DNA from: Parafrankia sp. EUN1f
Lineage (GTDB): Bacteria; Actinomycetota; Actinomycetes; Frankiales; Frankiaceae
Length of the DNA: 64,000 bases
Assembly (NCBI RefSeq): GCF_000177675.1
Contig: NZ_ADGX01000001.1
Span: 1-64,000 of the forward strand
Direction: 5' to 3'
Shown: positions 12,350 through 51,240 of the stretch, piece after piece
Position numbering within the stretch: position 1 is the first letter of the stretch
Layout of the letters: each line of letters opens with the position of its first letter
Translations under genes and position numbers: made by a program
The notes under the pieces: model-generated
What the model was told of the DNA's origin: nothing
Databases searched by the model: none
What the model saw: the letters and a program-made list of their open reading frames with translations, nothing else

Positions 12350-12587
12350 CTGCCCTATCCGTGCGACGATCGACAGATCAACGCATGCCTGTGGGCGTAC
12401 AAGGAGCATCCAGGACGGGCGCGGATTCCCCGCCCCTGCCGCAGCCGCGTGCGGGTCCTTCCCCGTTAGCCACCCGAGCGGATGACGCCCACGGGTCGAG
12501 GGTGGGCAGCTCGAGGCAACAGGAGGGACCGCGGTCCGAGCGGGTCACGTGGAGCCGCACAACTGTGCAACGGTAAGGAGACCGAGG

Positions 12588-14966
12588 GTGAGCGATATCA
12601 GCACTGACGCCGTGGCACGGGCGCTGCCGTCCAGGTCGTTGCTTGAAGGAATCCGGGTGGTCGAGGTGTCCTCCCGAGCCTCGGGCGCGTACGCGGGACG
12701 CCTCTTCTCCGTGCTCGGAGCCTCTGTCGTCCGGTATGGGCCGGTGCTGGATCTTGCTGCGGTCGGCACCGTCGCGAGCCTCACGGAGCAGTGGCTGCAC
12801 GAGGGCAAGACCCTGGGCGCCGCGTCGAGGATGGAGCCCGAGCAGGTCGTGTCGGGGGCGGACCTGGTGCTGCTCGAAGTCGACTCGGCCGACGCCGAGT
12901 GGCGGAGCTGGGCGTCCGAGGTCGAGGCGGCGGCCGGACGTCGGCCCTCGAGCGACTCGGTGCGGCCACCCGTCGTGCTCCGCGTCGAAGGCGCCGTGGT
13001 CGATGGTCGGCCGATCCCGTCCGACGCGCTGTCGGTAGGGGCCTGGTCGGCGATGAGCTGGTCCATCGGCGGCGCGGACAGGGAACCGCTCACCCTGCCG
13101 TTCGATCTGCCGGACTTCCAGGCCGCCCTCTACGGGGCGGCTGCTGGGCTGGCTACGTTGCTCGCCGACCCCGCGGCGCCGGACCTCCGTTCCGTCGAGG
13201 TCGCCACCAGGGATGTGCTGGCCTACTACGTCGGCATGATCACTGCGAACTTCCTTCCGTACGAGCGGCCCTGGACCCGCGACGGCGCCCGGCCGCCGGG
13301 CTCCGCGGGGGTCTACCCGGCCAGCATCTTCCCCTGCGCGGACGGTCACGTTGTCCTGATGTGCCGCAACCAGCGGGAGTGGAAGGCGTTGCTGGCCGCT
13401 ATGGATGATCCGGAGTGGGCTCGCGATGCCCGGTTCGACGATCCGCGGGTCGTCGCCCGGCTGCACGCCGACGAGGCCGACAGCCATCTGATGCCCTGGG
13501 TGCGGGGGCAGACCACCGAGGAGCTGATGGTGATCGGCCAGAAGCACGGGCTGGCGGTCGCACCGATCCGCTCGATGAGTGAGGCGCTCGAGGAGCCACA
13601 GTTCGCGGAGCGCGGCTTCCTCGGTGAGCTGCCGAGGGCACCGCGGCCCGTCAGGGTCGCGACCGTCCCGTGGCACCTGTCCGAGATCGGCGACGCTCCG
13701 TCGGAGGCCCGTTCGTGGCCCGTCGGGTCCTCGGCGACCGAGCCGGCCCGGCTGCTCGAGGGGCTGCGGGTGCTGGACCTGAGCTGGGTCTGGTCCGGCC
13801 CGCTCACCACGTCGATCCTGAGCGACCTTGGCGCCGAAGTGATCAAGGTGGAGCACGAGGGCCATCTCGACACCGGGCGGCTGCGCGGCAAGGCCCGGCG
13901 CGGGGGCGTCGAGGTCGAGGGCCCCGAGCACGAGGCCACGCCCTACTTCAACCAGATGAACCACGGCAAGCGGAGCATTACGGTCGACCTCAAGCATCCG
14001 CGCGCGCGCACACTCCTGCTGGACCTGGCGGAGCAGTGCGACGTGGTGGTGGAGAACATGAGGCCGGGCGCGCTGCAGCGGCTGGGCCTGTCCTACACCG
14101 ACTTCGCGGGGCGGAACCCGTCCATCGTGATGCTGTCCATGTCCATGGCCGGCCAGGAGGGACCGCTGCGGACCATGAAGGGCTACGCTGGGATCATGGC
14201 CGCGATGTCCGGCCTGGAATCCCTGATCGGGTACGACGAGGCCAATATCGTCGGCAGCCTTTCGCCCGCCCTCGGCGACCCGAATGCCGCCGGACACGCC
14301 CTCACGGTCCTGCTCGGTGCCCTGATCCGGCGGCGGCGGACGGGCGGCGGGGCGTGGATCGACCTGTCGCAGATCGAGGCGCTGCTCTGTGCCCTGCCGG
14401 CGCCCGTTGTCCAGAGCCAGCTGGAACCCGCCATCCCTGTTCCCGCGAACTCGCACCCGCGGATCGCCCCGCACGGTCACTTCCCCTGCCGCGGGGAGGA
14501 CCGGTGGATCGCCCTCAGCGTGCGGGACGACGACTGGTCCGCCTTCACCTCGGTTGCCGCCGACGCGCCGTTCGCCTCGGAACCCCGCTGGTCGAGCCTG
14601 CGGGAGCGGATCAGCGGACGGTCACAGCTCGAGGCCGCCGTCGCGGAATGGTCCGCGGGGCAGGAGCGCGATGAGCTGGTAGACCGCCTGCTCTCCGCCG
14701 GCCTGCCGGCGGCGCCGGTGGCGAGCTTCGAGGAACTGACTGACGCCGCGTGGACGAAGGAGCGGGAGCTGACGGTACGAGTGTCACACAAGTACCTCGG
14801 GGACGTCGAAGTCTTCGTCGTGCCGTGGAGGTTCGGCGGCCACACGGCGGGGCGAGCCCAGCCGGCTCCGCTCCTCGGGGCGGACACCGACGACGTCCTG
14901 CAGCGCCTGCTCGCGCTGACGCCGCGCGAGATCGGGGAACTGCGCGCCGACGGCGTGCTGCGGTAG
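12588..14966 (+). CDS. Tandem class III (CaiB/BaiF-type) CoA-transferase
   Basis: A 792-residue protein with two CaiB/BaiF domains in tandem, about residues 15-385 and 395-790, twice the usual length. The second begins LLEGLRVLDLSWVWSGPLTT and keeps the catalytic Asp in LGDPNAAGHALTVLLGAL. The first has a weaker match, with Asp in LPDFQAALYGAAAG. Class III enzymes move CoA between carboxylic acids through an aspartyl-CoA intermediate. GTG 12588 is used because GGTAAGGAG precedes it by seven bases. The MaoC gene follows in the same direction after 47 bases. Similar tandem proteins occur in actinobacterial degradation clusters; the acid substrate is unknown. Confidence 0.85.
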   Translation: MSDISTDAVARALPSRSLLEGIRVVEVSSRASGAYAGRLFSVLGASVVRYGPVLDLAAVGTVASLTEQWLHEGKTLGAASRMEPEQVVSGADLVLLEVDSADAEWRSWASEVEAAAGRRPSSDSVRPPVVLRVEGAVVDGRPIPSDALSVGAWSAMSWSIGGADREPLTLPFDLPDFQAALYGAAAGLATLLADPAAPDLRSVEVATRDVLAYYVGMITANFLPYERPWTRDGARPPGSAGVYPASIFPCADGHVVLMCRNQREWKALLAAMDDPEWARDARFDDPRVVARLHADEADSHLMPWVRGQTTEELMVIGQKHGLAVAPIRSMSEALEEPQFAERGFLGELPRAPRPVRVATVPWHLSEIGDAPSEARSWPVGSSATEPARLLEGLRVLDLSWVWSGPLTTSILSDLGAEVIKVEHEGHLDTGRLRGKARRGGVEVEGPEHEATPYFNQMNHGKRSITVDLKHPRARTLLLDLAEQCDVVVENMRPGALQRLGLSYTDFAGRNPSIVMLSMSMAGQEGPLRTMKGYAGIMAAMSGLESLIGYDEANIVGSLSPALGDPNAAGHALTVLLGALIRRRRTGGGAWIDLSQIEALLCALPAPVVQSQLEPAIPVPANSHPRIAPHGHFPCRGEDRWIALSVRDDDWSAFTSVAADAPFASEPRWSSLRERISGRSQLEAAVAEWSAGQERDELVDRLLSAGLPAAPVASFEELTDAAWTKERELTVRVSHKYLGDVEVFVVPWRFGGHTAGRAQPAPLLGADTDDVLQRLLALTPREIGELRADGVLR

Positions 14967-15013
14967 GACGTGATGGCGCGCGAGAACCTGCTCGAAGCCA
15001 CGTCCAGCGGGGG

Positions 15014-15874
15014 ATGACAGTGGCCCTCAACATCGATGCCGTCGGCGCCAGCGCCGAACCGTTCACCGTCGACTGGACGGAGGACGACACGATCCGGTAC
15101 GCGTTGGGGGTTGGCGCCGGTCAGACCGACCCCCTCGCGGAACTGGATCTCACTACGGAGAACACCGCCGGGGTTGCGCTGCGGGCGCTGCCGACTCTCG
15201 GTATCCCGCTCGTCCAGAGCAGGCTGCTGCGTCGTCTGCCGGTCGGCGACTTCGACCGCACGAAGCTGGTGCACGCCGACCAGAGCCTCCAGGTGCACAC
15301 CCGCGTCGCGCCCTCGGGATCGGCCGTCGTGCACGCTCGTCTGGACGGCATCTACGACAAGCGCAGCGGTGCGCTTCTGGTCGTCTCAGCCCAGGCACGC
15401 GACCCGGGGACGGGCCGGCCGATGTGGACGAGCAGGCTCGGCTACTTCATCCGCGGTGAGGGCGGTTTCGGTGGTGCAGGCGCGCCGCCGGACGGCTGGG
15501 CGGAACCCGAGATCGAACCCGACCAGGTCGTGGAGACGGCGACACGGCCGGATCAGGCGCTGCTGTACCGCCTCAACGGCGATCGCAACCCGCTCCACTC
15601 GGACCCTGCCTTCGCCGCTCGAGCCGGCTTCCCTCGTCCCATCCTGCACGGACTCTGCACATATGGCGTGGTCCACCGGGCGCTGGTCGCATCGGAACGT
15701 GGCGGGGACGTCTCCCTGGTTCGCGGCATGTACGCGCGGTTCAGCCGACCGGTGATGCCGGGGACGCTGCTGCGCACCGAGGTGTGGCGGCGCGGCTCGG
15801 ATGTCCGATTCCGCACGAAGGACGCGGACGGGCGGACGGTTCTTGACAGGGGACGGCTGGCCTTCGGCGCTTGA
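15014..15874 (+). CDS. MaoC-type (R)-specific enoyl-CoA hydratase
   Basis: A 286-residue double hot-dog protein. The hydratase-2 motif is clear in the C-terminal half: YRLNGDRNPLHSDPAFA, with catalytic Asp and His, followed by PRPILHGLCTYG. The N-terminal half is a hot-dog repeat without this motif. It would hydrate a trans-2-enoyl-CoA and could supply the hydratase step missing from the 53-60 kb locus (inference). ATG 15014 directly follows a G-run; GTG 15020 is an alternative. It is probably co-transcribed with the CoA-transferase and ends at a bidirectional hairpin. Confidence 0.87.
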   Translation: MTVALNIDAVGASAEPFTVDWTEDDTIRYALGVGAGQTDPLAELDLTTENTAGVALRALPTLGIPLVQSRLLRRLPVGDFDRTKLVHADQSLQVHTRVAPSGSAVVHARLDGIYDKRSGALLVVSAQARDPGTGRPMWTSRLGYFIRGEGGFGGAGAPPDGWAEPEIEPDQVVETATRPDQALLYRLNGDRNPLHSDPAFAARAGFPRPILHGLCTYGVVHRALVASERGGDVSLVRGMYARFSRPVMPGTLLRTEVWRRGSDVRFRTKDADGRTVLDRGRLAFGA

Positions 15875-15876: not shown

Positions 15877-15918
15877 GGCGGCCCGACCCGCTCTCCTCCG
15901 GGCGGGTCGGGCCGCCGG
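15877..15918. terminator. Bidirectional hairpin between convergent genes
   Basis: CGGCGGCCCGACCCGC (15877-15892) and its exact complement (15903-15918) form a 16-pair stem with a 10-base loop. It sits three bases after the MaoC stop and before the convergent ADH stop. Confidence 0.75.
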
Positions 15919-15966
15919 GCGGTCGCTCACCGTCCCGTGGGCCGCAGCGGCGCCAGGCCTCGCCCC

Positions 15967-17097
15967 TCAGCGGTGCGCATCGACCGGCCCCGCCAACGCC
16001 GCGAGCAGGACGTCTTCCAGCTCCTCGACCACGGGTTGGAAGGTCGTGCCGCGGGCCGCGGGGTCCATCAGCGCCGTGGCGGCCAACGCGGGAACGTCCT
16101 CGCGGGACACCCCGAGCTCGGCGAGGCCATTGACCGGCACGATGCCCTCGAGGAGCCGGGTGCAGGCCAGGGGAACCGCCACCGGCGCGCAGCCGAGTAC
16201 GGCGGCGAGTCGATCCAGACTGGCCGGGTCGCGCTGGGCGCAGAGCCGTAGGGCGTGCGGGAGGACCACAGCGTCGACGGGCCCATTGTGCCCCCCGGTC
16301 ACGTGTCCGACGGTGTGCGCGATCGCGGCGGTCAGGGCACCACCAGTGGCGTCCGTCGCATCGCCGACGGCGGCGGCGGCCAACACGAGCCGGGTCCGTA
16401 CACCGAGGTCGGCGGGCTCGGTCGCCGCGCGGCGGAGCAGATCGGGCAGCTCCAGGACGGCACGGCCCAGCGCCTGCTCGGCCTCGGCGTCGCGGCGTCG
16501 AGTGGTGAGGCCCTCGACCGCCATGACCAGCGTGGTCAGTCCGGCGTCGCGGACTAGGGCGGGCGGGGTCGAGGCGAGCAGGCGCGGGTCGACGATCAGG
16601 GCGGTGGCCCGGGTCGCCGGGTCCAGCATCGCCCGCCGGCGCATCAGGCCGCGCTCGGTCACCGCGGTGCCTGCCTTCACGGACGCGGTTGTCGGAGTGG
16701 TGGGCAGGACCACGATCGGCAGCCGCGGGGCCGTTCCCGGCCTGCGGAACTCGGGTCCGTCGGCGAGCACGATCGCGGTCGCCCGCGCGGTCACGATGGC
16801 GGAGCCGCCGCCGGCGACCACGATCGCGTCTGCACCCGCGGCGCGGAGCCGCTCCGCGGCCGCGAGGACGCTTTCGATCGGGCTGTGCTGCGCGAGCGAG
16901 GACTCGACGATCGCGTACGGACGCCCGGCGGCGCCGCCGAGGAGGGCTCGCAGGCCCGGATCGTGCGCGACCGACCGGGGGGCGAGGAGCGCGGGGCGGC
17001 GCGAGCCGAGCCGGCTGAGCTCGTCAGCGAGCCGGGCGGCGCTGCCCGGGCCGTGGTGCAACCGCACCGAGGACCGCAGCACAGGTCCATCGCTCAC
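15967..17097 (-). CDS. Iron-ADH/maleylacetate reductase-family dehydrogenase
   Basis: A 376-residue protein of the iron-containing alcohol dehydrogenase superfamily. It has GGGSAIVTARATA (nucleotide binding), the PTTPTTASV segment, and C-terminal AIAHTVGHVTGGHNG. By comparison with FucO, two of four metal ligands (Asp and His of DALTH) are replaced (TTLVM), while the two later histidines remain. A metal-free maleylacetate-reductase-like chemistry is possible. GTG 17097 is chosen because it overlaps the stop of a 10-codon upstream frame, and the same GTGA overlap joins the homologous fragment at 53131 to the preceding ACAD. The locus is a collapsed copy of the 53-60 kb locus. The start at ATG 17187 lies inside the operator and is rejected. 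Confidence 0.8.
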   Translation of the reverse strand: MSDGPVLRSSVRLHHGPGSAARLADELSRLGSRRPALLAPRSVAHDPGLRALLGGAAGRPYAIVESSLAQHSPIESVLAAAERLRAAGADAIVVAGGGSAIVTARATAIVLADGPEFRRPGTAPRLPIVVLPTTPTTASVKAGTAVTERGLMRRRAMLDPATRATALIVDPRLLASTPPALVRDAGLTTLVMAVEGLTTRRRDAEAEQALGRAVLELPDLLRRAATEPADLGVRTRLVLAAAAVGDATDATGGALTAAIAHTVGHVTGGHNGPVDAVVLPHALRLCAQRDPASLDRLAAVLGCAPVAVPLACTRLLEGIVPVNGLAELGVSREDVPALAATALMDPAARGTTFQPVVEELEDVLLAALAGPVDAHR

Positions 17098-17114
17098 CGA
17101 CGTGCCGGTCCCAG
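16913..17114 (+). repeat. 202-bp repeat, copy 1 (5' end of ADH gene)
   Basis: This segment matches 52947-53148 in the same orientation, with a single mismatch (17076 G against 53110 A). It covers the first roughly 60 codons of the ADH gene and the end of the preceding frame. Copy 2 is a truncated ADH gene. Confidence 0.9.
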
Positions 17115-17126
17115 GTGAAGGTCCAC
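17094..17126 (-). CDS. Ten-codon leader frame from an ACAD-ACAD deletion
   Basis: GTG 17126, behind GAGGAGGAG, encodes MDLHLGPARR, and its TGA overlaps the ADH GTG start (GTGA). The beginning MDL is the start of the ACAD encoded at 55488 (MDLRYSAAEQ). The end LGPARR is the C-terminus of the ACAD encoded at 53128 (GLGLGPARR). The mini-frame is therefore what remains after an in-frame deletion of both ACAD genes, and it keeps translational coupling into the ADH gene. Whether the peptide itself matters is doubtful. Confidence 0.6.
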   Translation of the reverse strand: MDLHLGPARR

Positions 17127-17165
17127 GTCGCTCCTCCTCGTCGGATGTGACCCCATAGGCGCAGC

Positions 17166-17187
17166 AGCTTGGCATACAGTATGGCAT
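17166..17187. promoter_or_regulatory. Operator-like TTGGCAT palindrome before ADH
   Basis: TTGGCATACAGTATG followed by GCATGCC. It matches the divergent operator at 55534-55554 almost base for base, and the DNA on both sides (the leader to the right, the GAGGAGGAG ribosome site to the left) is also homologous to that locus. Confidence 0.65.
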
Positions 17188-17245
17188 GCCTTCGCGGATA
17201 CGGCATTGCCGCCCGGCCGCCGCTCTGCGGGGCCGCTACCAGAGG

Positions 17246-17311
17246 GTGCCCTCCACCATCGACGACGCCTCGGCACTCGACACCCTGCGACCTAACCTGC
17301 ACCCTCGGTAA
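17246..17311 (+). pseudogene. 3' scrap of an acyl-CoA synthetase gene
   Basis: Sixty-six bases encode VPSTIDDASALDTLRPNLHPR-stop (given here to show the match). They align without gaps to the last 66 bases of the acyl-CoA synthetase gene ending at 59936 (VPSTLDDASVLDALRPILRPR). Upstream, 17188-17243 instead matches the 5' leader of the SDR gene at 55634. The breakpoint is at about 17244, so a deletion removed SDR, thiolase-like, DUF35 and synthetase genes. Confidence 0.8.
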
Positions 17312-17358
17312 TGGCCGCGTAAGCACGCGACGGCAGAGGGACATCAGCAACCGACGAC

Positions 17359-17388
17359 GCGGGCCCGATGTCGTGACATCGGGCCCGC
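17359..17388. terminator. Terminator hairpin after synthetase scrap
   Basis: GCGGGCCCGATGTC and its exact complement form a 14-pair stem with a 2-base loop. A hairpin of the same sequence type (GCGGGCCCCGATGCC) follows the full synthetase gene at 59984. Here it lies 43 bases before the NTF2-like gene and would insulate it from the ADH operator region. Confidence 0.7.
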
Positions 17389-17430
17389 AGGCGCCGGTCG
17401 AGCGCCAGCCGACGGACCGCTAGGAGGAGG

Positions 17431-17958
17431 GTGGCGCGTGCCGCCGGACGGACGAGACATGGAGACATTCTGAGCGCGTCCCAGCAGTTGCGACGGCTCG
17501 TGGACCAGGGCGAGATCCGCGACCTGGTCCACCGATACTGCCACGCCGCCGACCAGCAGGACCACGAACAGCTCAGCACCCTGTTCACCGCGGACGGGGC
17601 GCTGAGCTTCGAGCGGTCGCCACTGGCCACGCCACCGTCCTCCTCGCCCTTGCCGCCCTCGGCCTTCGTCACCTACCGGGGCCGCGCGGACCTGCGGTCG
17701 ATGCCGAGATCGCCGCTTCCCCGGGGCCTCCACGTCACGACGAACACTGTGATCACCTTCGATGGTCAGGACGACGCCACCGGGCTCAGCTATTTCGTCC
17801 GGTTACTGACGGACGACGACGGGTACCGCATCGGGAACGCCGGCCTCTACCGTGACCGGTACCGAAGGACTCCGGCGGGTTGGTTCATCTACCAGCGCAC
17901 GATCCACTCCCTGCCTCCCGGCGGGTTGCCGCTGGAGCTCTTCGCTCCGTCGAACTGA
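17431..17958 (+). CDS. SnoaL/NTF2-like domain protein
   Basis: A 175-residue protein of the SnoaL_4 type: LRRLVDQGEIRDLVHRYCHAADQQDHEQLSTLF is the typical first helix and strand, followed by FTADGALSFE and RDRYRRTPAGWFIYQRTIH. Such proteins act as cyclases, isomerases or small dehydratases, often as accessory proteins in ring-degradation clusters. GTG 17431 follows TAGGAGGAGG closely. It stands alone, downstream of the collapsed locus. Confidence 0.75.
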   Translation: MARAAGRTRHGDILSASQQLRRLVDQGEIRDLVHRYCHAADQQDHEQLSTLFTADGALSFERSPLATPPSSSPLPPSAFVTYRGRADLRSMPRSPLPRGLHVTTNTVITFDGQDDATGLSYFVRLLTDDDGYRIGNAGLYRDRYRRTPAGWFIYQRTIHSLPPGGLPLELFAPSN

Positions 17959-18434
17959 AGGTATGCAAAATTAACGCAGACATTGACGCGGCGTCGTGCC
18001 ATCGCCGACCTGGGCTACGAGAGCAGAGCCCCTTGCGCCTCGTTCGCCGAGTGGCACACGCCTGACAAGATCGACCTGACGTTCTCGTCGACAGGTTGGT
18101 CACGGACGTCTACGCCCCGGCCGGGTGACGTCGATTCCCTCATGGCCCGGCCACTTTCTGGTCCCGCTGGCCTTCGGGGACCCGTCACTCCAGCTGCTGG
18201 TCTCATGGAGCCCCTGCCAATGCTGATACTCGCAGCGCCCATCTTGATCCCCACGCCGAAGTCGCTCGACATCTCGCCGCTGTGGTTGTGGCGTCTTGGC
18301 GGTCTTCCGCGTTGCGCGCCCCAGGCGCCGACCGCGGTTCAGCTGTCTCGTCGTCGTAGACCTCGGCGTGGAGACATCTGAGTAGTCGTTGCTCACGGTC
18401 TGCGTCGAGCTCCCCCATCGAGCCGCACCGCGGG
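17959..18434. other. Gene-free stretch
   Basis: About 475 bases between the NTF2-like gene and the convergent SDR stop. It begins with GTATGCAAAATTAACGC, which resembles half of the TGCAT-type sites but has no gene to serve. I see no coding homology or repeat in the rest. Confidence 0.4.
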
Positions 18435-19289
18435 TCAGACCTGGCTGCGCAGCTCCCCGCCGTCGACCGGGAGGACGTGACCGGTGAAGAAACGCGAGGC
18501 ATCGGTGCACAGGAACTCCATCGCGTCGATGCAATCGTCGACCTCCCCGATGCGACGCAAGGCGTTTCGTTCCTCGAGCTGGGTCGCCTGTTCTCCGAAC
18601 CGCGCGCTGTCGCTCTCGCCGAACACCGAAAGCATGCGACCCGTCCGCGTGACCCCTGGTGCGAGGCAGTTGACGCGGACGCCGAAGGGGCCGAGCTCCT
18701 GAGCGAGGTAGCGCGTATACATGATCACCGCGGCCTTCGCGGCGCCGTAGTGCGCGGACGCCCCGCTCTTGAGCGCCTCGATTCCGTTGACAGATCCAAG
18801 AGTGACGATCACCCCGGCACCCTGCCGCTTCATCACGGGCGCCACGGCGACGCACGTGGCGACCGTCGAGACCAGGTTGCGGCGCAGGATGAGGTCGAAC
18901 TCCTCGGGGTCGAGCTGGGAGGCAAACATCGATGGCCCCATCGAGATGCCGGGGAGCCCGACGGATCCGCCGGCGTTGCAGACGACGACGTCGAGTCGTC
19001 CCCAGCGCTCCCGCACCTGCTCGACGAGTGCGGCCTGGGCGGCAAAGTCGGCGGCGTCCTGCTGCGTGGCCATGGCCTCGACACCGTGCTGCTCGAGTTC
19101 CTGGGTGACCGGCCTCCCGGCGCTGGCTGCCTTGTCGAACTCGAACTCCCCGTCGTTGTGGAGGTCAACGTCGCTCACGGCAACATTCGCCCCGAGCGCG
19201 GCCAGGCGTATGGCGAAACCTCGGCCGAGGCCCCGGTTCCCGCCGGTGACCAAGGCGGCCTTCCCAGCGAGAGGTCGAGTCGTTGCCAC
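18435..19289 (-). CDS. Short-chain dehydrogenase/reductase
   Basis: A 284-residue SDR: cofactor motif TGGNRGLG at about residues 15-22, the NAG segment CNAGGS, and the catalytic Ser...Tyr-x-x-x-Lys set in LGSVNGIEAL...HYGAAK. The start chosen is GTG 19289 behind GAGGAG; the open frame extends to 19424 into the end of the Liv fusion gene without conserved sequence. It lies 34 bases after the LivHMG stop on the same strand and is probably the last gene of that operon. An alcohol/ketone substrate is expected but not identifiable. Confidence 0.83.
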   Translation of the reverse strand: MATTRPLAGKAALVTGGNRGLGRGFAIRLAALGANVAVSDVDLHNDGEFEFDKAASAGRPVTQELEQHGVEAMATQQDAADFAAQAALVEQVRERWGRLDVVVCNAGGSVGLPGISMGPSMFASQLDPEEFDLILRRNLVSTVATCVAVAPVMKRQGAGVIVTLGSVNGIEALKSGASAHYGAAKAAVIMYTRYLAQELGPFGVRVNCLAPGVTRTGRMLSVFGESDSARFGEQATQLEERNALRRIGEVDDCIDAMEFLCTDASRFFTGHVLPVDGGELRSQV

Positions 19290-19323
19290 GATGATCTCCT
19301 CGTGCGGGTAATGGTGGTCGGTG

Positions 19324-22065
19324 TCATGGACCTGGCACGACGCTCGGTGCGGGACGCTCGTCGCGTTCCGGGGTGCTGGCCCGGCCTGAGTAGGCCGCGA
19401 CGACAGCGGGGTCGGTACTGACAATCGACGGGTCGCCGGCAGCGATCACCCTGCCGAAGTCGAGCACGACGATCCGGTCGCAGCACTCGCGGACCAGCGC
19501 CACGTTGTGCTCGACGAGCAGCACGGCGATTCGGAGCTCGTCGGCCAGCTGACGAACCAGCTGAGCGAGCTCGGCCGACTCGACGTCGCTCAGTCCCGCG
19601 GCCGGCTCGTCGAGGAGAAGCACGGCCGGCGAAGTAGCGACGGACCGTGCGACGGCCGTCAGCCGTCGGCGCCCGTAGGCGAGGTTCGCGGGCAGTTCGT
19701 CGAGATCACGCTCAAGGTCGAACTGGCGGATGGCACCGATTGCTGAGGCCGGCAGGGGCTCGAACCGGTGCAGGAGGAGGCTTCTCACGAGGGACCGCGT
19801 ATCCCGGCCCGGCCCGCCGACGCGGAAGTTGTCCGCGACCGAGATGTCGTCGAGGAGCTCGAGCGACTGGAACGAGCGGCTCAGACCCCCTCGTGCGCGT
19901 CGGTGTGCGGGCCACGACGTCACGTCGTCCACCCCGAGCCGCACGACGCCGCCGGTGGGGTCGACGAAGCCGGTGATGGCGTCGATCAGCGTGGTCTTGC
20001 CCGCTCCGTTGGGTCCGATCACTCCGACGACCTCTCCCGGCTCGACCGACAAACTCACGCCGGCGAGCGCGGTGACACCCCCGAACCTGACTGTCAGGTC
20101 CTGGACCTCGAGCCGCCGGCGAGGGCCGGCCTCCGCTGCGTCGAGCGCCGTGTCGACCACGACCTCGCGGCCCCGCCGACCCGGTGCCGGCTGCCGGCCG
20201 AACATCCGCAGGACCGCCCGCTTGACGGCCTTGACCTGCAGGATCGTCGGTCTGGCCATGCCGTTCGGGTCCTGGATGAGCAGCAGGATGAGGAAGACTC
20301 CGGTGAACAGCACCAGCCACTGGTTGAGATTGCCGAGACCGAAGGAGTCGCCGAGCCGGGTGCCGACGCCGCCGGTGCTCAGCTGGCCCCCGAGCGGAGC
20401 GCCGACGATGTAACCGACGCCGCCGATCACCGCGAGCGTCACCGTCATCAGCGAGCCGATGGGATCGAACTGGCTGAACAGTGCCACGGGATTGCCCAGG
20501 ATGAGCAGGACTCCGGCGAGGCCGGCTATGGCCGACCCGACGGCGAAGGCGGTGAGCTTGGTGACGGCGACGCTGACCCCCAGCGACGCCGCTGCACGCT
20601 CGCGGGTCCTGATGGTGATCATGCTGAGCCCCGGTTTGCTGCGGCGCAGGTTGGCCACGAGCAGCGCGGTGACGACGAACGCCACGAGTACGACGATCGC
20701 GAACCGTCGAGGGTGATCGAAGGAGTCGATGCCGATGCCGAAAAGCGACCGCTGCGAGACGTCCATGCCCGACACCCCGCCGGTGAACTCGGCGCTGTTG
20801 AACACCATGGCGTGGAGGACGGCGCTGAGACTGAGCGTGACGATAGCCAGCTCGATGCCGCGAGTCCTCAACGCTGGAAGCGCGAACAGGAGGCCCGCCG
20901 CGGTCGCGGCGGCGACGCCGGTGACCGCGGCTGCCTCGAGGGGCCAGCCCTTGCTGCTGATCAACCACGAGGTCGTGAGCGCGCCGACGCCCCCCAGGGC
21001 GAACTGGGCCAGGCAGAGCTGACCGGCGTACCCGGTCAGGACGACCACGGACAGCAGGAAGATGGACCAGACCAGCGTCACCCGCAAGGCGTCCACCCAG
21101 GGGATCGGCAACAGGAGCAGCGCGGCGGCACCGATGGCCGCGAACCCCGCGACTCCGTAGCCGGATATCCGGCCGTCGCCCAGCGATGGGAACTTCACCC
21201 CGACGTGGTCACGCGCCGGCAGCTTGCTCCCACGCCACACCAGCAGGCCGATGATGATGACCAGGGGGACGGTCTGAGCCGCGCCCTGCAGTTCGACGTA
21301 GCTGGGGATGACTGCCTGTGCGATGCCGATCCCGAAGCCGCCGAGCGCGGCGAGGGGGAACGAGGACAGGCCGCCGATGAGCGCTCCGGCGAGCCCGCCG
21401 ATGACGATGAGCGTCAGGGTCTGCGGGTCGACTCCGGTGAAGGGCCCGACCAGGATGCCGGCCAGCCCGGCGAGCCCTGATCCGCTCGCCCATGCCACCG
21501 TCCCGATGACATGTGGCGACCAGCCGAGCGCGGCGGCCGCCTCGCTGTTTTCGGCCGTCGCCGAGATGGCGAGGCCGATCGTGGACCACCGGAAGACGGC
21601 GTAGAGCAGCCCCGTCAGGAGCAGGGCGATGAGGGCCAGCACAATGCGGTCCTGCGGGACTGAGATCCCACCGACTCGCGTGACGGCCTGAGGCAGGAAC
21701 GATTGCACGAACGTGGCGTCGGTGCCGAAGATCAAGGTCACGCCGGCCTGCGTGATGAGGAGCACGGCGATCATCGCGATGGACTTGACCAGGATCGACG
21801 CCTCGCCCATGGGGCGCAGCACGGCGTTGTGAATCACGGCTCCCATCAGGCTGGACAACGCGATGGTGATGACCGCCGCCTGCCACGAGGCCCATCCGGC
21901 GTCGCTCAACGCGATGTAGATGTGCGCCGCGAGCATGGCGATGGCGCCGTGAGCTAAGTTCAGCACACCAGAGCCTCGGTAGATCAGCACGATGCCCTGA
22001 GACAGCAAGGAAAGCGCGGCGCCGGCACCGACACCGAGCACGGCCAGCTGCAAGAAGTCGGTCAT
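19324..22065 (-). CDS. LivH-LivM-LivG triple-fusion ABC transporter protein
   Basis: A 913-residue single chain. LivH permease occupies residues about 1-290 (SQGIVLIYRGSGVLNLAHGA), LivM permease about 305-610 (GYAGQLCLAQFALGGVGAL), and a LivG ATPase about 660-913. The ATPase has Walker A GPNGAGKTT from residue 684, signature region NLAYGRRR and Walker B VLLLDEPAAGLSD. Normally these are three proteins. The fusion fixes two channel halves and one ATPase in one chain, leaving LivF and the binding protein separate. ATG 22065 overlaps the LivF stop (ATGA). This is the third gene of the leftward operon binding protein, LivF, LivHMG, SDR. Confidence 0.88.
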   Translation of the reverse strand: MTDFLQLAVLGVGAGAALSLLSQGIVLIYRGSGVLNLAHGAIAMLAAHIYIALSDAGWASWQAAVITIALSSLMGAVIHNAVLRPMGEASILVKSIAMIAVLLITQAGVTLIFGTDATFVQSFLPQAVTRVGGISVPQDRIVLALIALLLTGLLYAVFRWSTIGLAISATAENSEAAAALGWSPHVIGTVAWASGSGLAGLAGILVGPFTGVDPQTLTLIVIGGLAGALIGGLSSFPLAALGGFGIGIAQAVIPSYVELQGAAQTVPLVIIIGLLVWRGSKLPARDHVGVKFPSLGDGRISGYGVAGFAAIGAAALLLLPIPWVDALRVTLVWSIFLLSVVVLTGYAGQLCLAQFALGGVGALTTSWLISSKGWPLEAAAVTGVAAATAAGLLFALPALRTRGIELAIVTLSLSAVLHAMVFNSAEFTGGVSGMDVSQRSLFGIGIDSFDHPRRFAIVVLVAFVVTALLVANLRRSKPGLSMITIRTRERAAASLGVSVAVTKLTAFAVGSAIAGLAGVLLILGNPVALFSQFDPIGSLMTVTLAVIGGVGYIVGAPLGGQLSTGGVGTRLGDSFGLGNLNQWLVLFTGVFLILLLIQDPNGMARPTILQVKAVKRAVLRMFGRQPAPGRRGREVVVDTALDAAEAGPRRRLEVQDLTVRFGGVTALAGVSLSVEPGEVVGVIGPNGAGKTTLIDAITGFVDPTGGVVRLGVDDVTSWPAHRRARGGLSRSFQSLELLDDISVADNFRVGGPGRDTRSLVRSLLLHRFEPLPASAIGAIRQFDLERDLDELPANLAYGRRRLTAVARSVATSPAVLLLDEPAAGLSDVESAELAQLVRQLADELRIAVLLVEHNVALVRECCDRIVVLDFGRVIAAGDPSIVSTDPAVVAAYSGRASTPERDERPAPSVVPGP

Positions 22066-22823
22066 CCGTGTGCCTCCGAGGCCTCGTCAACCTGGGTACG
22101 GCCGCCGAGGTAGACCTCCTCGATCTCGGTCGATCGTGCCGAGACGGCTGCCGCCGTGCCGGCCATGACGATGCGCCCCCGGGCAAGCACGTAGGCCCGA
22201 TCGGCGAGACTCAGCGCCTTCTCGACGTGCTGCTCGACGAAAAGGACGCCGGTTCCCTCACGGGCCGCCTCATTGATGGCGCGGTAGAGCCGGTCGATGA
22301 CGACGGGCGCCAGGCCCAGCGAGAGCTCGTCGATGATCAGCAGTCGTGGCTTTCGGGCAAGCGCCCTTCCCAGGCTCAGCATCTGCTGCTCGCCGCCGGA
22401 CATCGAGCCCGCCGAGACCGTCAGGCGCTTTTCGAGCTCGGGAAAGTGACGCAGCACGTCGTCGACGGCGCACCGCCCGACCCGGATGTTGTCGGCCACG
22501 GTCATCCTGCTGAAGATCGACCGTTCGGCGGGGACGAATCCCAAACCATGCTTGGAGCGTTGGTGCAGGAGACCCGAGGTGGCGCGACCGAGCCACATCA
22601 CCGTGCCACCGAGTGGTGCGACGAGTCCGGCCAACGCCATGAGCGTGGTGGTCTTTCCTGCCCCGTTGGCCCCGAGCAAGGCGACTTTCTCGCCGGACCT
22701 TACGTCCAGATTCACCTCGCGCACGAAGGCGCGACGATTGAACCCGACCTGCAAGTCCTGGGTGGCGATCACCGGCTCGTCGGCGCCATGTACGGCCGAC
22801 GTGCCCTCGGCGACCCCGGCCAC
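22062..22823 (-). CDS. Liv-type ABC transporter ATP-binding protein (LivF)
   Basis: A 253-residue ABC ATPase with Walker A GANGAGKTT at residues 51-59, signature MSGGEQQ, Walker B LLIIDELSLGLAP and the VEQHVEKAL H-loop region. GTG 22823 is chosen: it starts two bases after the binding-protein stop and follows GAGAGG. A longer open frame reading into the binding-protein gene is not conserved. Four-base overlap with LivHMG shows tight coupling. Confidence 0.88.
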   Translation of the reverse strand: MAGVAEGTSAVHGADEPVIATQDLQVGFNRRAFVREVNLDVRSGEKVALLGANGAGKTTTLMALAGLVAPLGGTVMWLGRATSGLLHQRSKHGLGFVPAERSIFSRMTVADNIRVGRCAVDDVLRHFPELEKRLTVSAGSMSGGEQQMLSLGRALARKPRLLIIDELSLGLAPVVIDRLYRAINEAAREGTGVLFVEQHVEKALSLADRAYVLARGRIVMAGTAAAVSARSTEIEEVYLGGRTQVDEASEAHG

Positions 22824-22825
22824 CG

Positions 22826-24097
22826 TCAGTGCCTCTCGCCGAAGGGGGCGATAGGGGTCTTGCTCGTGAGCTTGAGCTTGCCGTCGTCGACGACAGAGAC
22901 GAAGCTGGCGTCGTTCGAGATGCGCTCGAAGTTCTTGGGTCCGACGAAGTTGGTCGGTGTCCACGGCGGCGTGCCGAACCCCAGATCGATATCGTGCGCC
23001 TGCTTGAAGGCTGCCAGCACTGTCTCGTTAGTAACCTCCGCGGGCTTGGCGGCGTTGACCACGTCGGCGATCGCCTTGACCGCCACCCAGGCGCGGAGCG
23101 TCTCGCCTCGGATTCTGTTCCGCGCGGCACCGCCGTTGCCCGCGTCCTCCTCGGCCTTCATGTCGCCGAGGAACTCCTGCATGTCGGGTGAGGCGGCGGA
23201 GTCGTCGGACAGGACGGGCAGAAAGCTGCTACCGATGATGTAGCTGTCGACCGCGGGACCCAGTTTGTTGATGGTATTCTGGTCGAGCCCGGACTCCGTT
23301 CCGCCCATCGTGAAGGTAGCGCCCTGCTGCTGCCGCGCCGTCAGCGCTGAGGCCAAGGCGGAGGCGCCGAATATGGTCGCCACGTAGTCGACGTCCGAAT
23401 TCGTCAGCCGTTGGACGACAGGGGCCCAGTCCGACGTGGTGGGCGAGATCCTCAGGGCGTCGACCCACTCCAACCCTAAGGCCTCCGCGGCGGCTCGCAC
23501 GGCGTCCTCGGCCCCTTGCAGGGAGGCCGCATCGCTGCGCACGAGGGTGACGCGCTTGGCGCCCTGCCTCTTGGCTTCCACGTAGGTCGCGATCAGCTGA
23601 CCGACGGTTCCGGTATCGGTCATGAAGGTCGTCGGGTTGTCGAACTCGGCGGGGGTGAAGGGGATCGGACCGACCTGCGCGATTCCCGCGTCGCTCAAGA
23701 TCTTTGCGGGGCCGTTCGTGGAAAGGGTAAAGTTGAACGCCGTAGCCACCACCTTGTCCTTCACGAAGTCGCGAGCGCAGGTGATACTGGCGTTCGGATC
23801 GTTCTTGTTGTTGCAGAAGTCGAGAACCACCTCGTGGCCCATGATGCCGCCGGCGGCGTTGATCGCCCGGACCGCGGCCCGGGCGCCGTCTAACGAGACC
23901 TGCGAATCGTAGATCGGGCTCCCGGTAGGCACTGTTAAGCCGATCTTGATCGGCGAACCGTCGGGCTTGGCTCCGTCAGCGGTCGAGCCACCGTCAGCGG
24001 AACCGCAGGCTGTCGCGCCGAGGAGCATGACGAGGGTGGCGAGGGCCACGCGCTCCGGCCGGAGCCGGGATAAGCGGGTGCGAGAAGGCATCTTCAT
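22826..24097 (-). CDS. Liv-type ABC transporter substrate-binding lipoprotein
   Basis: A 423-residue type I periplasmic-binding protein. The N-terminus is a basic stretch, then VALATLVMLLGATACGS with lipobox ATAC, so it is an exported lipoprotein. IKIGLTVPTGSPIYDSQVSLDGARA opens the binding domain. It is the first gene of the second Liv operon and is followed directly by LivF. An operator-like site lies about 150 bases upstream. The ligand is not evident. Confidence 0.86.
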   Translation of the reverse strand: MKMPSRTRLSRLRPERVALATLVMLLGATACGSADGGSTADGAKPDGSPIKIGLTVPTGSPIYDSQVSLDGARAAVRAINAAGGIMGHEVVLDFCNNKNDPNASITCARDFVKDKVVATAFNFTLSTNGPAKILSDAGIAQVGPIPFTPAEFDNPTTFMTDTGTVGQLIATYVEAKRQGAKRVTLVRSDAASLQGAEDAVRAAAEALGLEWVDALRISPTTSDWAPVVQRLTNSDVDYVATIFGASALASALTARQQQGATFTMGGTESGLDQNTINKLGPAVDSYIIGSSFLPVLSDDSAASPDMQEFLGDMKAEEDAGNGGAARNRIRGETLRAWVAVKAIADVVNAAKPAEVTNETVLAAFKQAHDIDLGFGTPPWTPTNFVGPKNFERISNDASFVSVVDDGKLKLTSKTPIAPFGERH

Positions 24098-24246
24098 CGT
24101 AGGTTCCTATCGTTCTCTGGACAGCATGATTTCTCTGGACAGCCGATGGTTGGCGCGCTCGCGGAAGCGCCGACGACCTCTGCGGATCGTGGCGTGGCGT
24201 CGCGTGGCCTACGACACTAACAGTCAGAGTTCTGGCTGAACACCAC

Positions 24247-24277
24247 TTGGCATGTTATTTGGCCGATGATCGCATGC
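24247..24277. promoter_or_regulatory. Operator-like TTGGCATG site upstream of Liv operon 2
   Basis: TTGGCATGTTATTTGGCC at 24247-24264 is followed by GCATGC at 24272-24277. It has the TTGGCATG half seen at 4575, 17166 and 55534 but a less regular second half. The remainder of 24098-24420 holds nothing recognised. Confidence 0.5.
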
Positions 24278-24420
24278 GGTTCACCGAGAGCGGTGCGGCA
24301 GCGGGCCTCGTGTCCGGCAGGCATCGACGCGGGTAGCCTGGCGCCGATCCGCCACCGCCGGCGCGCTCCGTCACCCAGGCGACTGCCGGCAGTGACGTCC
24401 TGCCAGGGGAGCGGGAGCGC

Positions 24421-24700
24421 TCAGCCGAGAAGTGCCTGACGAAATTGGTCGACCCGCATCGTGTAGTACCACTCCAGACCCGGTGTCAGGTCGGCAGAGC
24501 CAGGCATATCCGGAGGGTCGCCACCCAGAGCGCCGTTGTCTCCTCCGCAGTCGCCGACTCCAGGTGGATCCGGCCGGACCTGCCCAACCGCCGCTGCCGC
24601 TCAGATCCACATCGATCCGGGGCATGAGATCGTCCCCGGCAACGGCCGCGACGCGGATCCGGTCGCCGACACCGAGCTCGAGCACCCGCCGCGCACATCC
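24421..24700 (-). pseudogene. SRPBCC-family gene fragment, frameshifted
   Basis: The last codons read DMPGSADLTPGLEWYYTMRV then DQFRQALLG-stop at 24421, and one frame over the preceding part reads RIHLESATAEETTALWVATL. Together they match the C-terminal half of the intact SRPBCC protein at 26994 (GRIQLDRTADGETAVSWLTT, VPDLPGAAELVDGFRTYY). The N-terminal half is missing and one frameshift splits the rest, so the gene is dead. Confidence 0.65.
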
Positions 24701-24810
24701 GGACGGGTTCATCCTGCCCGCATTGCAGCGGATCGTGATGTCCCGTCCGAGGGCGTCACGGAGGCAATCGCACAGGATGGGGTCGATGTCTCATCGTGCA
24801 CGGAAGAATG

Positions 24811-24990
24811 GGCTCTGGCTCACTTTCGGTGGTGACGGAGTGTGGTCCCTGGTGAGGCCTGACGGCGGAAGGCGGCCAATCCGCCCGGCGTGTGGCGACA
24901 CGATGTGTCATGTCGGGATCGAATCGTCTGGTTGAGCTGGTGTTTTCGGGTCTCTCGCCGCTGGTCATCGAGGACGTGGTGGACGGGGTC
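24811..24990 (+). mobile_element. ISL3-family insertion-sequence end with transposase start
   Basis: The terminal repeat GGCTCTGGCTCACTTTCGGT begins at 24811. After about 100 bases an ATG at 24909 opens a frame reading LVELVFSGLSPLVIEDVVDG, the usual N-terminus of ISL3-family transposases. The homology stops near 24990, just before another copy of the terminal repeat. Only a 5' stub remains. Confidence 0.65.
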
Positions 24991-25002
24991 TGTAAAGTTA
25001 GC

Positions 25003-25210
25003 GGCTCTGGTGCACATTCGGTGGTGACTAAACGTGAGTAGACGCCCCGGCGCCCACTTTGCCCTGTATCCATTGGATTTGAGCGCCCCGCGCCGGGGCT
25101 CGCCGGGACTTCGAATCGACGCCGAACTGCCCGGCTTGGCCGATTTGCCGACCGGCAGCACGCATCCGCCGACACTAACGCACGGTTACCACCGAATGTG
25201 ACACAGAGCC
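25003..25210. mobile_element. 208-bp element bounded by ISL3-type inverted repeats
   Basis: GGCTCTGGTGCACATTCGGT begins at 25003. An inverted copy, GGCTCTGTGTCACATTCGGT read on the minus strand, starts at 25210. The enclosed 208 bases carry no transposase frame. It could be an internally deleted ISL3 copy or a MITE mobilised by an ISL3 enzyme, nested next to the stub at 24811. Confidence 0.65.
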
Positions 25211-25311
25211 GTTGCCTTTGCAGGCCCTAATGCTGATATAGTTCCCGATACGCAGGTGTCCGAGGAACGGGATACACCTCAGTGCAGGCACCAGGATGCT
25301 GATCACGGTCG

Positions 25312-26901
25312 TCAGATGTCGATCATGGCACGCAATCGGCGGGCGCGCGCATCCCTGGCCACGCTCGATGCGGGTGCCATGACATCGAAGGCGTGGTACG
25401 CGCCCGGGTAGACGTGGAACTCGGTCGTGACGCCGCTGGCGATCAGGCGGCGGGCGTAGTCGACGCTCTCAGTGACGAGGATGTCGAGCGCCCCGACTTC
25501 GAGGTACGTGGGCGGGAGACCCCGCAGCGACTCCGCCCGCGCTGGTACCGCGTGCCTCGGTGGAGTACTCCGATCGAGCGCCGGGCCGAGGTAATCGGCC
25601 CACGCGCTCGCGTTCGCCGAATGGCTCCACGTGCCCTGGGCAGCGTCCGCCGTCGTCGGTTCGACCGACGTCCGCTCGTCGAGCATCGGGTAGATCAGGA
25701 CCTGCTTCGCGAGCGGGGGCACGTCCCCGTCGAGCGAGCGCAGGGCCAGGCTTGCAGCGAGGAGGCCCCCCGCACTGACCCCGTGGACACCGATCCGGTC
25801 GGACCGCAGGTGCAGGCGCGTGGCCTGCGCGGATAGCCACGTCAACGCGGCGGCACAGTCGTCCACAGCGCCCGGGAAGGGGACCTCGGGTGCGAGTCGG
25901 TAGTCGACGGAGAGGATCACGCACCCGGAGTCGGCCGCGAGGTTCGCCGCCGCGAGGTCCGAGGAGTCCAGATCTCCCACGCTCAGCCCGCCGCCGTGGA
26001 GGTAGAGCCAGGCGGGCAGGGCGGCGTCGGCGTACCCGGCCGGGAAGTACAGCCGCGTCCTCACCGCCGGCGAGCCCGGCACACCAGGAACGACCTGGTC
26101 CTGCACGGTGACCGTGGCCGGCATCGTGCGCGCCGCGGCGACGCGCCGGGCATGGGCGTGGAACGCCGCGCGACGTTCGTGCACGTCGACGATGCCCGCG
26201 ATGCCAACGTCACCCACCGCCGCATGGTAGGCAGCGAGCGGCCCGCGGAGCTCGGGGTGAACCGAGGCGTCCGAACCAGACTCGGGCGAGAAGACCCGGT
26301 CCGCCCGATCGCTCTCAGCCGATGTCGACACGAGACGTCCTCGGCCGCGGTCACTCGCGGCGAACGCTCCGGGACCCAGCACCATCGCGGCGTACTCGCG
26401 GTGTCCGAGCGCGCGGAGCTTGCGCTCCCGGATCAGCCACCGCCCACCCACCTTCGCGAGTTCCCAGCGGTTGGACGACGCACCGATGACGTGCAAACCG
26501 CCGTCCCGGGAGATGATGCTCAGGGCGTAGCCGCTCGCGATGGCGGTGTTTCCCGTGACCGTCACCTCGACATTGTTGCCCTGCACGTGCATCACATTGC
26601 CGTACCAGCTCTTGTCCCAACGGCCCTCCGGGTCCGCGACGAAGTCGCGCAGACGGGCGCTGCCCTCCCACCGCTCCGACGACGCGTACTCGCCGTATGA
26701 GGACCCCATCGAGATGTCCAGCGCACCATCGGGCGTGAACAGGTCAACGAAGTCGTCGACGCTACCGAAGTCCGACATGTATCCGTACCTGGACAGGACG
26801 TACCGGATCTCCCGCTCGTCCTCCAGCTCGCCGATCCGTCGTTCCAGGCGCGCGAGCCGGTCCTCGTCCCGGCCGATGCCAGCCGTCTCGGCGTCAGTCA
26901 T
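25312..26901 (-). CDS. NTF2-like domain fused to alpha/beta-hydrolase (HSL-type esterase)
   Basis: A 529-residue fusion. Residues about 20-170 form a SnoaL/NTF2-like domain (EREIRYVLSRYGYMSDFGSVDDF, LFTPDGALDI). Residues about 215-529 form an HSL-family alpha/beta-hydrolase with oxyanion motif HGGG at 302-305, nucleophile elbow GVSAGG (Ser376), an Asp in GALDILVTES and His in AYHAFD. It should hydrolyse a carboxylic ester, plausibly the ester made by the monooxygenase upstream in the same operon. About 45 residues of low-conservation linker join the domains. It is the last gene of the operon monooxygenase, SRPBCC, esterase. Confidence 0.85.
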   Translation of the reverse strand: MTDAETAGIGRDEDRLARLERRIGELEDEREIRYVLSRYGYMSDFGSVDDFVDLFTPDGALDISMGSSYGEYASSERWEGSARLRDFVADPEGRWDKSWYGNVMHVQGNNVEVTVTGNTAIASGYALSIISRDGGLHVIGASSNRWELAKVGGRWLIRERKLRALGHREYAAMVLGPGAFAASDRGRGRLVSTSAESDRADRVFSPESGSDASVHPELRGPLAAYHAAVGDVGIAGIVDVHERRAAFHAHARRVAAARTMPATVTVQDQVVPGVPGSPAVRTRLYFPAGYADAALPAWLYLHGGGLSVGDLDSSDLAAANLAADSGCVILSVDYRLAPEVPFPGAVDDCAAALTWLSAQATRLHLRSDRIGVHGVSAGGLLAASLALRSLDGDVPPLAKQVLIYPMLDERTSVEPTTADAAQGTWSHSANASAWADYLGPALDRSTPPRHAVPARAESLRGLPPTYLEVGALDILVTESVDYARRLIASGVTTEFHVYPGAYHAFDVMAPASSVARDARARRLRAMIDI

Positions 26902-26993
26902 GTGGTCCTACCTCTCGTGAGATGCCGGACATGGGTCGCGGCGGACGGCGATCGCACAGCGGGTCGCGCCACCGAGGTGCGTCTCGGGTCGGA

Positions 26994-27464
26994 TCAGGAC
27001 GCGGAGCCGGACACCGCGTCCCGGAGGTTCTCGACGCGACCCGCGTAGTACGTCCGGAACCCGTCCACCAACTCAGCTGCTCCGGGTAGATCCGGCACGG
27101 TCGTGAGCCAGGACACGGCGGTCTCCCCGTCCGCCGTCCGATCAAGCTGAATGCGGCCGGTCAGCCCGATGGTCTGCGGCCGGCCCACGACGACGCTGTA
27201 CTGGACGGCGTGCCTGGCGTCATCCAGTTCGTCCAGCCGCTCGACGACCTCTCGATCACCAAGCTGGACCACGCGCAGCGCTCCGACCCCGGAACCCTGG
27301 ACCTTGCAGCTGGTGACCGAGGGATGCCACGCCATGATGCCTGCAAAGTCACGCACGAGCTGCCATACGCGCTCGATCGGCGCGGCCAGGATCCCGGTGG
27401 TCGTGAAGCTCGTGAGCGCACGGGGACGACCCTGCTGCTCGTCGAACGGGTTCGGCTGGTCCAT
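26994..27464 (-). CDS. SRPBCC (START/Bet v1-like) family protein
   Basis: A 156-residue polyketide-cyclase/START-type protein: ILAAPIERVWQLVRDFAGIMAWHPSV is the typical first strand and helix, followed by SCKVQGSGVGALRVVQL and a C-terminal helix. ATG 27464 follows GGAGGTGG. Such proteins bind hydrophobic ligands in a deep cavity. The gene lies 47 bases after the monooxygenase and 92 before the esterase fusion, on the same strand. A decayed relative lies at 24421-24700. Confidence 0.78.
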   Translation of the reverse strand: MDQPNPFDEQQGRPRALTSFTTTGILAAPIERVWQLVRDFAGIMAWHPSVTSCKVQGSGVGALRVVQLGDREVVERLDELDDARHAVQYSVVVGRPQTIGLTGRIQLDRTADGETAVSWLTTVPDLPGAAELVDGFRTYYAGRVENLRDAVSGSAS

Positions 27465-27511
27465 CTCATCCACCTCCACGTCCACGCCCCATCTCGATCG
27501 AGAGCCCCCGA

Positions 27512-28981: not shown

Positions 28982-29692
28982 GGCACCTCACCTTCGTTGG
29001 TCCGCAGCCGATGGAAGAGTGGCACCGGTTGGCACGTCCCGGTGATCTGACCAATGAGTGCTCGCGGCACGGCGAGCGGCTAGTGATCGGCCACCCATGG
29101 ACTCCGACGTGCACATCTTTGCATGCGATTTGCCATACACGCAAGGCATCGAGACGGTGCGCCAAGCGAGCGACGCGCCTATGACTGCCCGTGACGGCGC
29201 AGGCCTGAATCACCGGCCCTGACCCGTCTCACGGTCGCCCAGGCTGGCTCAGGAGGACGAGGCCGGAGAAGAATCAGGCGGCAGCCGCCGATCGACCCGC
29301 TCCCACCGACATCCCGCGTCGGAGCCCGTCACCACCTCCCCGGGTGAAGCGATAGGCATGGTCATCGGTGTTTCGGCAGTATTCATCGTGGCACCGGCGT
29401 CAGGCGCCGACAGCGCCGTCCACATCGTGCAGGTGATCGACGTCAGGCGGCGGCGCGAAGTCGAACTCGGTTCGCCGGAACTCCGACGCCTTGAGCTTCA
29501 CACTGATGTCCGCGCTCACCAGCCCCAACTCGATCGCCATGATCATGACCGCGAACGGTCGCGAGTGGAACCGGGACTGCTGAATGCCGCCGGTGAAGGC
29601 CCAGAGCCTCGGGTTCCGGCAGGCCGGAAGCTCGTGCGGATGAAGTGGGGACGCCAGCCGGTGATCACGCGTTGTGGCTCGGGTTGGCCGCG
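28982..29692. other. Intergenic stretch with one operator and a possible gene relic
   Basis: This 711-base gap contains the TTTGCATGC site at 29118. On the minus strand at about 29400-29560 a frame reads FHSRPFAVMIMAIELGLVSA and ends FRRTEFDFAPPPDVDHLHD. It looks protein-like and may be the 3' part of a lost gene, but I do not recognise the family. Nothing else is seen. Confidence 0.35.
29118..29139. promoter_or_regulatory. Operator-like TTTGCATGC site upstream of the monooxygenase operon
   Basis: TTTGCATGCGATTTGCCATA. The left half equals that at 12325, and the TTGCCATA right half resembles the GGCATAC halves elsewhere. It is placed before the leftward operon starting at 28981. Confidence 0.58.
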
Positions 29693-30547: not shown

Positions 30548-30610
30548 GTTTCCTCCTCCTCAGTGTTTCTCTCGACGAACTTCATGGGCAATCCCTGGGC
30601 GTGCCCGCCG

Positions 30611-31360: not shown

Positions 31361-31482
31361 CGTCGACCCTCCACACTCGTCATTAGTGCCACGCCTGCGA
31401 GTTCCCGCCCGGCAGAGTTCCGACGGCCTCCGTCATGTCGCACACGAGCAGGCAGCCTGAGCCCGGCAAGCACGCGACAGCG

Positions 31483-32343: not shown

Positions 32344-32437
32344 TGCGCTCTTCCCGCCCGGCGGCTGCTAGGGCCCCGTTCTGAGCTCCGGAGCGGGCTC
32401 GGCCGCCGGCGATGAGGCGGCCGACGGCTCACCAGGC

Positions 32438-33349: not shown

Positions 33350-33440
33350 GTCTGCATCCCTTTCTCGACGTGTCGTCTTCGCGCAATTAGATGGGCTGCA
33401 TCCCGGCCGACCGATGGATCACCTATGACACCCCCTGGGC

Positions 33441-34610: not shown

Positions 34611-34675
34611 AGTGGTAGCTCCCAACGAATGTAGGTGTCGAACAGCCGATGGTTCGTCGGCACCGGACGCGAGGC

Positions 34676-51237: not shown

Positions 51238-51240
51238 TCC

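Follow-up and report, generated by a model that had tools for sequence, protein, structure and literature searches.

The closest described counterparts of the catabolic genes considered here are the Ltp2-ChsH2/DUF35 aldolase systems of steroid side-chain degradation (PMC12329534), and the nearest context for their rearrangement is Frankia, in which IS-rich genome plasticity has been described (PMC2770080). The gene set in the window (the whole 64,000-nucleotide stretch of Parafrankia sp. EUN1f DNA that was analysed) resembles the Ltp2-ChsH2 systems in combining a thiolase-fold protein and a DUF35 protein with MaoC, ACAD1/ACAD2, SDR and acyl-CoA synthetase genes. According to the Pfam assignments, the Thiolase_C_1 protein adjoins the DUF35/ChsH2 OB-fold protein, the ACAD pair is present, and the Thiolase_C_1-DUF35 pairing is conserved in many loci. 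A major difference is that MaoC and DUF35 are separate genes here, and that a double CoA-transferase and an iron-type alcohol dehydrogenase (ADH) are present. The likeness is one of gene content, the steroid side chain being the substrate of the known system.

A control-region remnant at 17 kb

The features of the window are listed in Table 1. The initial annotation described the region around 17 kb as a single collapsed copy of the 53-60 kb locus, in which the outer ends, the control region and the ADH gene had survived. A BLASTN comparison of 15800-17500 with 51500-60600, from which the block coordinates and E values are taken, reveals three collinear blocks on the same strand. The control-region block (17117-17189 against 55479-55554; 78%, E 3e-11) continues through the SDR leader to 17244/55621 with 70% identity overall, and gapped alignment lengthens the synthetase-tail match to include the spacer and the terminator hairpin up to 17392, giving a right piece of 17244-17392 in full. 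The chance level was assessed by dinucleotide shuffles (200-500 per piece), and the pre-operator region alone, the operator region, the leader alone, the synthetase tail, and the spacer with the terminator score above every shuffle (0 of 200-500), as does the terminator alone. The outer ends and the control region of the intact locus are thus present at 16913-17392, and the alignment bears out the annotated matches of the ACAD1 start, the leader and the synthetase end.

Table 1. Features of the intact locus, the remnant and the intervening segment
Feature	Coordinates	Strand	Evidence
CoA-transferase family III, double domain (CoAT), pathway partner	12549..14966	+	Pfam PF02515; 55% to Blastococcus L038 homologue
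MaoC-type hydratase, pathway partner, convergent with ADH	14750..15874	+	Pfam PF01575/PF22622; 51% to L038, 42% to L039
Hairpin between convergent MaoC and ADH	15880..15930	.	-38.4 kcal/mol, z -4.1
Iron-type ADH, complete, 376 aa, GTG start	15967..17097	-	Pfam PF00465, PF25137
Left repeat copy: first 61 ADH codons and last 17 nt of ACAD2	16913..17114	+	201/202 to 52947-53148, E 6e-102 (BLASTN); exact run 163 bp
10-codon minigene VDLHLGPARR-stop: ACAD1 start fused in frame to ACAD2 end	17095..17127	-	Sequence; stop overlaps ADH start (GTGA)
Diverged control region (ACAD1 start, ribosome site, operator)	17115..17189	.	78% to 55479-55554; 0/200 shuffles
Operator GGCATACAGTATGGCATGC	17171..17189	+	Only three copies, <=1 mismatch, in 9.35 Mb: 4577, 17171, 55536
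SDR leader remnant	17190..17244	+	0/500 shuffles against 55555-55633
Acyl-CoA synthetase remnant: last 66 nt and 8 nt beyond	17245..17318	+	84% to 59870-59943, E 8e-18 (BLASTN)
Terminator-type hairpin, homologous to 59981-60022	17354..17392	+	-38.1 kcal/mol, z -3.6; 0/500 shuffles
Segment between direct repeats, 35,832 bp	17115..52946	.	Starts with diverged remnant, ends in decayed ICE fragment
Decayed ICE-type fragment	51892..52948	+	87% to L154, 71-74% to others
Truncated ADH 5' end: first 61 codons of ADH 15967-17097	52947..53131	-	BLASTN; sequence
Right repeat copy, ICE fragment adjoining on its left	52947..53148	+	BLASTN; sequence
ACAD2	53128..54240	-	Pfam
ACAD1	54250..55488	-	Pfam
Operator of intact locus	55536..55554	+	Motif search
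SDR	55634..56395	+	Pfam
Thiolase-fold protein with Thiolase_C_1 domain (probable aldolase)	56392..57543	+	Pfam PF22691
DUF35/ChsH2-type OB-fold partner	57540..57965	+	Pfam PF01796, PF12172
Acyl-CoA synthetase	58014..59936	+	Pfam PF00501, PF16177
Terminator hairpin of intact locus	59981..60022	+	-50.7 kcal/mol, z -6.2

On the right, the annotated junction of the SDR leader with the synthetase end and the terminator is upheld (70% to 17244 and 84% over 17245-17318, all shuffles beaten); the SDR ribosome site and start are absent, and the leader passes straight into the synthetase tail. This tail matched nothing else in the genome, which rules out another paralogue as its source. A 41-codon frame running from inside the remnant operator to the synthetase stop was given no weight. 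On the left, the ACAD1 start is indeed joined in frame to the ACAD2 end (GTG GAC CTT CAC followed by CTG GGA CCG GCA CGT CGG TGA), but the match is not limited to the six ACAD2 codons originally reported: it covers 202 bp, and its age differs from that of the rest. What stands of the initial annotation is that 17115-17392 is the remnant of a second copy of the divergent locus, which has lost almost all sequence from the operon starts to the right-arm end.

Two ages at the 17-kb site

The two copies of the 202-bp repeat lie on the same strand and flank the segment 17115-52946. The repeat contains 163 exact bp to the left of its sole mismatch and is identical out to both edges, where the ICE sequence starts on one side and the jump to the ACAD1 start occurs on the other, with microhomology of only 0-4 bp at the ADH-ICE junction and the left junction. 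In this ADH/ACAD2-tail block 1/202 positions differ, versus about 40/205 in the rest (28/131 in the control region and leader, 12/74 in the synthetase tail; Fisher p 5e-12); divergence from the 53-60 kb locus amounts to 16-22% in the control region, the SDR leader, the synthetase tail and the terminator. The left block (16913-17114) is recent. Given 0.5% versus 16-22% divergence, the ADH block and the rest were joined at different times, and protein constraint does not explain the identity of the block, since no synonymous change is seen in the 61 shared ADH codons.

One duplication followed by collapse would leave all surviving pieces equally diverged, which is not what is found, and a single collapsed copy with a surviving ADH, as first annotated, is therefore not supported. 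The stretch is instead a composite in which a gutted control region of older date (17115-17392) adjoins an ADH block that has been shared recently, and ADH is best read as a displaced gene of the intact operon, not as the survivor of a collapse. Two ages within 480 bp illustrate that an apparent collapsed copy can be composite, and annotators should be warned that this ADH belongs to the 53-60 kb pathway.

The counterpart of ADH at the 53-kb locus is a stump, absent from the initial annotation, that is cut at 52947 by the decayed ICE fragment. The genome contains one complete ADH, and the remaining part of the second was found nowhere else in it. At both the 17-kb and the 53-kb sites the ADH start overlaps the preceding stop as GTGA, and, judging from the sequence, expression of ADH from the remnant operator by translational coupling behind the ten-codon minigene is plausible. 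Two of the usual metal-binding histidines of iron-type ADHs are apparently missing in this ADH and in its closest relatives (L016 and L027), where NG replaces HG and the other altered position is the second one of the D-H pair, and ADH may represent a metal-independent subfamily. The neighbouring CoAT is an 805-aa double protein that is conserved in the Blastococcus locus.

The segment between the direct repeats

Joining 17114 to 53149 in silico restores intact ACAD1 (412 aa), ACAD2 (370 aa) and ADH (376 aa) genes with the GTGA overlap, and places CoAT and MaoC (12549-15874) about 1.2 kb from ACAD2. Direct repeats around the segment and restoration of an intact gene set upon its removal are as expected from a single crossover. 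The segment encodes transporters, SDRs, flavin monooxygenases, oxygenases and an IS4/5-type transposase pair, in addition to the same-pathway genes ECH (40527), a GntR/FCD regulator (41700) and MeaB (42444). Its right end consists of debris, including an IS66-type fragment (recognised by eye from the translation), a broken AKR gene, a 63-bp direct repeat and the decayed ICE piece. Of the segment genes scanned, none was recognisable as encoding a recombinase or a replication function. Nor did these genes include an integrase, as an ICE would carry with conjugation genes and att repeats; the only ICE material is the decayed 1.06-kb fragment at 51892-52948. Homology of this fragment to other genomes of the order is lost at 52948-52950, at the junction with ADH, beyond which the ICE gene of those genomes continues differently. 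Base composition reveals no clear segment boundary.

Several further observations concern the same region. The genome with the 87% match to the ICE fragment (L154) is another of the same genus, and the fragment is fused on its left to a repeated sequence of 51-190 bp that recurs elsewhere in the family with identities of up to 100%; this repeat-type stretch stops at 51891. The 63-bp repeat (48553-48615 and 50570-50632, 98% identical) holds a piece of an aldo/keto reductase gene and flanks the IS66-like fragment and a periplasmic binding protein gene, in a style like that of the 202-bp repeat. Two MeaB-type GTPase genes on opposite strands, one outside the segment (5452-6402) and one inside it (42444-43427), are 70% identical over 461 bp, and 19324-22065 encodes a branched-chain transporter of 913 aa in which the permease domains and the ATPase are fused into a single protein.

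Corresponding loci in other genomes

In Blastococcus endophyticus (L038), F420 oxidoreductase-ACAD2-ACAD1 is divergent from CoAT-MaoC-SDR-thiolase-DUF35 within about 8 kb. The genes MaoC-SDR-thiolase-DUF35-ACAD1-ACAD2 form an uninterrupted series in Amycolatopsis acidicola (L039), and homologues of GntR and MeaB are found close by. The ACAD pair, SDR, thiolase, DUF35, MaoC and CoA-transferase genes thus occur together in other genera, where ADH never adjoins ACAD2. A search of 35 genomes from the order, 394 from the class and 80 thiolase loci, an incomplete sampling, did not reveal a complete ancestral locus that includes ADH, and none of the ACAD1/ACAD2 loci retrieved at order and class level contained an ADH. 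The closest ADHs (37-41%; L165 and L166, with fragments in L167) have no ACAD pair beside them; a scan of the genome collection with ADH returned no relative, and the plasmid collection yielded only distant ADHs. Because ADH lies beside ACAD2 in none of these genomes, it is the GTGA overlap and the repeat that indicate its ancestral position.

Operator and candidate regulator

The operator occurs at three sites on the contig and in a weaker form in other genera, which defines a small regulon. The leader of the first locus has no homology to the region of the third operator (4577), for which 183/300 shuffles score as well, and the leader match is therefore specific to two loci. The 4577 operator was considered as another collapsed copy and rejected, as it shows neither leader homology nor an ACAD1 start. 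An F420-dependent oxidoreductase gene lies beside it, the homologue of which follows ACAD2 in Blastococcus.

The Blastococcus locus contains a weaker operator (3 mismatches) before the CoAT gene, in an intergenic space of roughly 190 bp; since control patterns gave only 4 matches at <=3 mismatches in 9.35 Mb, this site is unlikely to be due to chance. Operator-like sites before MaoC and after ACAD2 in A. acidicola (4 mismatches), and near a GntR gene that lies beside an ADH in L167, a further genome of the family (5 mismatches), are only suggestive. The GntR/FCD gene at 41700-42323 is a candidate regulator of the three operators.

Proposed history and alternatives

With a probability of about one half, a cluster that used to be contiguous has been interrupted by a segment, at the left edge of which lies an old copy of the control region with two deletions. 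The window looks like a split cluster because removal of the segment rejoins genes that are contiguous in other genera; here, CoAT/MaoC and ACAD/SDR/thiolase/DUF35 are contiguous only with the segment taken out. The ancestral cluster would have formed one piece, with CoAT-MaoC facing ADH-ACAD2-ACAD1, followed by the operator and SDR-thiolase-DUF35-synthetase. An older copy of the control region would have lost most of both arms before the segment joined, and would have retained three ACAD1 codons, the operator and the terminator together with the SDR leader and the synthetase tail. Recombination through the shared ADH/ACAD2 block probably brought the segment in, either when a circular or displaced piece entered by a single crossover or by copying repair. 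A complete ADH under the remnant operator and an ADH stump at the intact locus would result, and ADH would still be translatable behind the minigene, whose stop overlaps its start. Insertion of the segment needs an extra step, because its block is near-identical while the neighbouring pieces are 20% diverged. Also counting against it are the lack of a genome with ADH-ACAD2 and of a recombinase or replication gene, the same-pathway genes within the segment, and the microhomology of 0-4 bp.

The same pieces might have arisen if the whole divergent locus was duplicated long ago, two deletions collapsed both arms while ADH was kept, and the 5' ends of ADH later underwent gene conversion, a history that we consider doubtful. 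It accounts for the collinearity of all pieces and for the retention of the operon starts, the right-arm end and the terminator, and the tidy fusions, including the in-frame left fusion coupled to ADH, would be explicable by selection for ADH expression. However, conversion must extend exactly to the two ends of the block, which contains the single difference, and the rejoining of a cluster contiguous in other genera upon removal of 17115-52946 is left unexplained; nothing specific was found in the literature on gene conversion and direct repeats. Misassembly is an unlikely source of the arrangement: MaoC, ADH, ACAD2 and ACAD1 would be truly joined, with 17115-52946 lying elsewhere or forming a circle and the repeat walked wrongly. 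The draft comprises 396 contigs, and the path X-R-E-R-Y has junction words in common with X-R-Y plus a circle E-R. As the 163 bases left of the mismatch are identical, the link of the ADH body to the remnant depends on reads or pairs spanning them. Read pairs longer than about 200 bp would resolve such a repeat, and a replication gene is missing from the segment genes scanned. If the join is wrong, ADH simply belongs to the intact operon, and the remnant carries only the ADH stump.

Chance similarity between regulated promoters beside an unrelated ADH is scarcely credible: about 20 bp are common to all three operators as a regulon, but the leader, pre-operator region, synthetase tail and terminator each beat all shuffles, and the third operator region does not match the leader of the first locus. 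BLASTN and the dinucleotide shuffles led to its rejection. The segment might also be reversibly excisable through the 202-bp repeats, with a split and a joined state forming a recombinational operon switch that would derive from a gutted operon copy. This is very unlikely; if true, excision would switch ADH between the remnant operator (split) and the ACAD operon (joined).

Comparison with known systems

The arrangement is an ordinary though instructive rearrangement, a fossil of genome shuffling and not a new kind of system; as fossils go it is well resolved, recording a catabolic operon that was split and rewired. It resembles Campbell-type single crossover in that a large segment lies between near-identical direct repeats of a split gene, with the whole gene on one side and a truncated form on the other. 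Unlike in Campbell-type integration, no plasmid or phage functions are recognised in the segment, the repeat is short, and a circular form is hypothetical here. The large, repeat-rich genome is also of the type described for plastic actinobacteria such as Frankia (PMC2770080), with partial gene copies, IS/ICE debris, short duplications, and deletions close to points where gene order is broken. In contrast to such remnants, the surviving pieces of the second copy represent the beginnings and ends of operons on either side of a control region, and a particular joined arrangement, MaoC-ADH-ACAD2-ACAD1, is predicted from the 202-bp direct repeats at the flanks.
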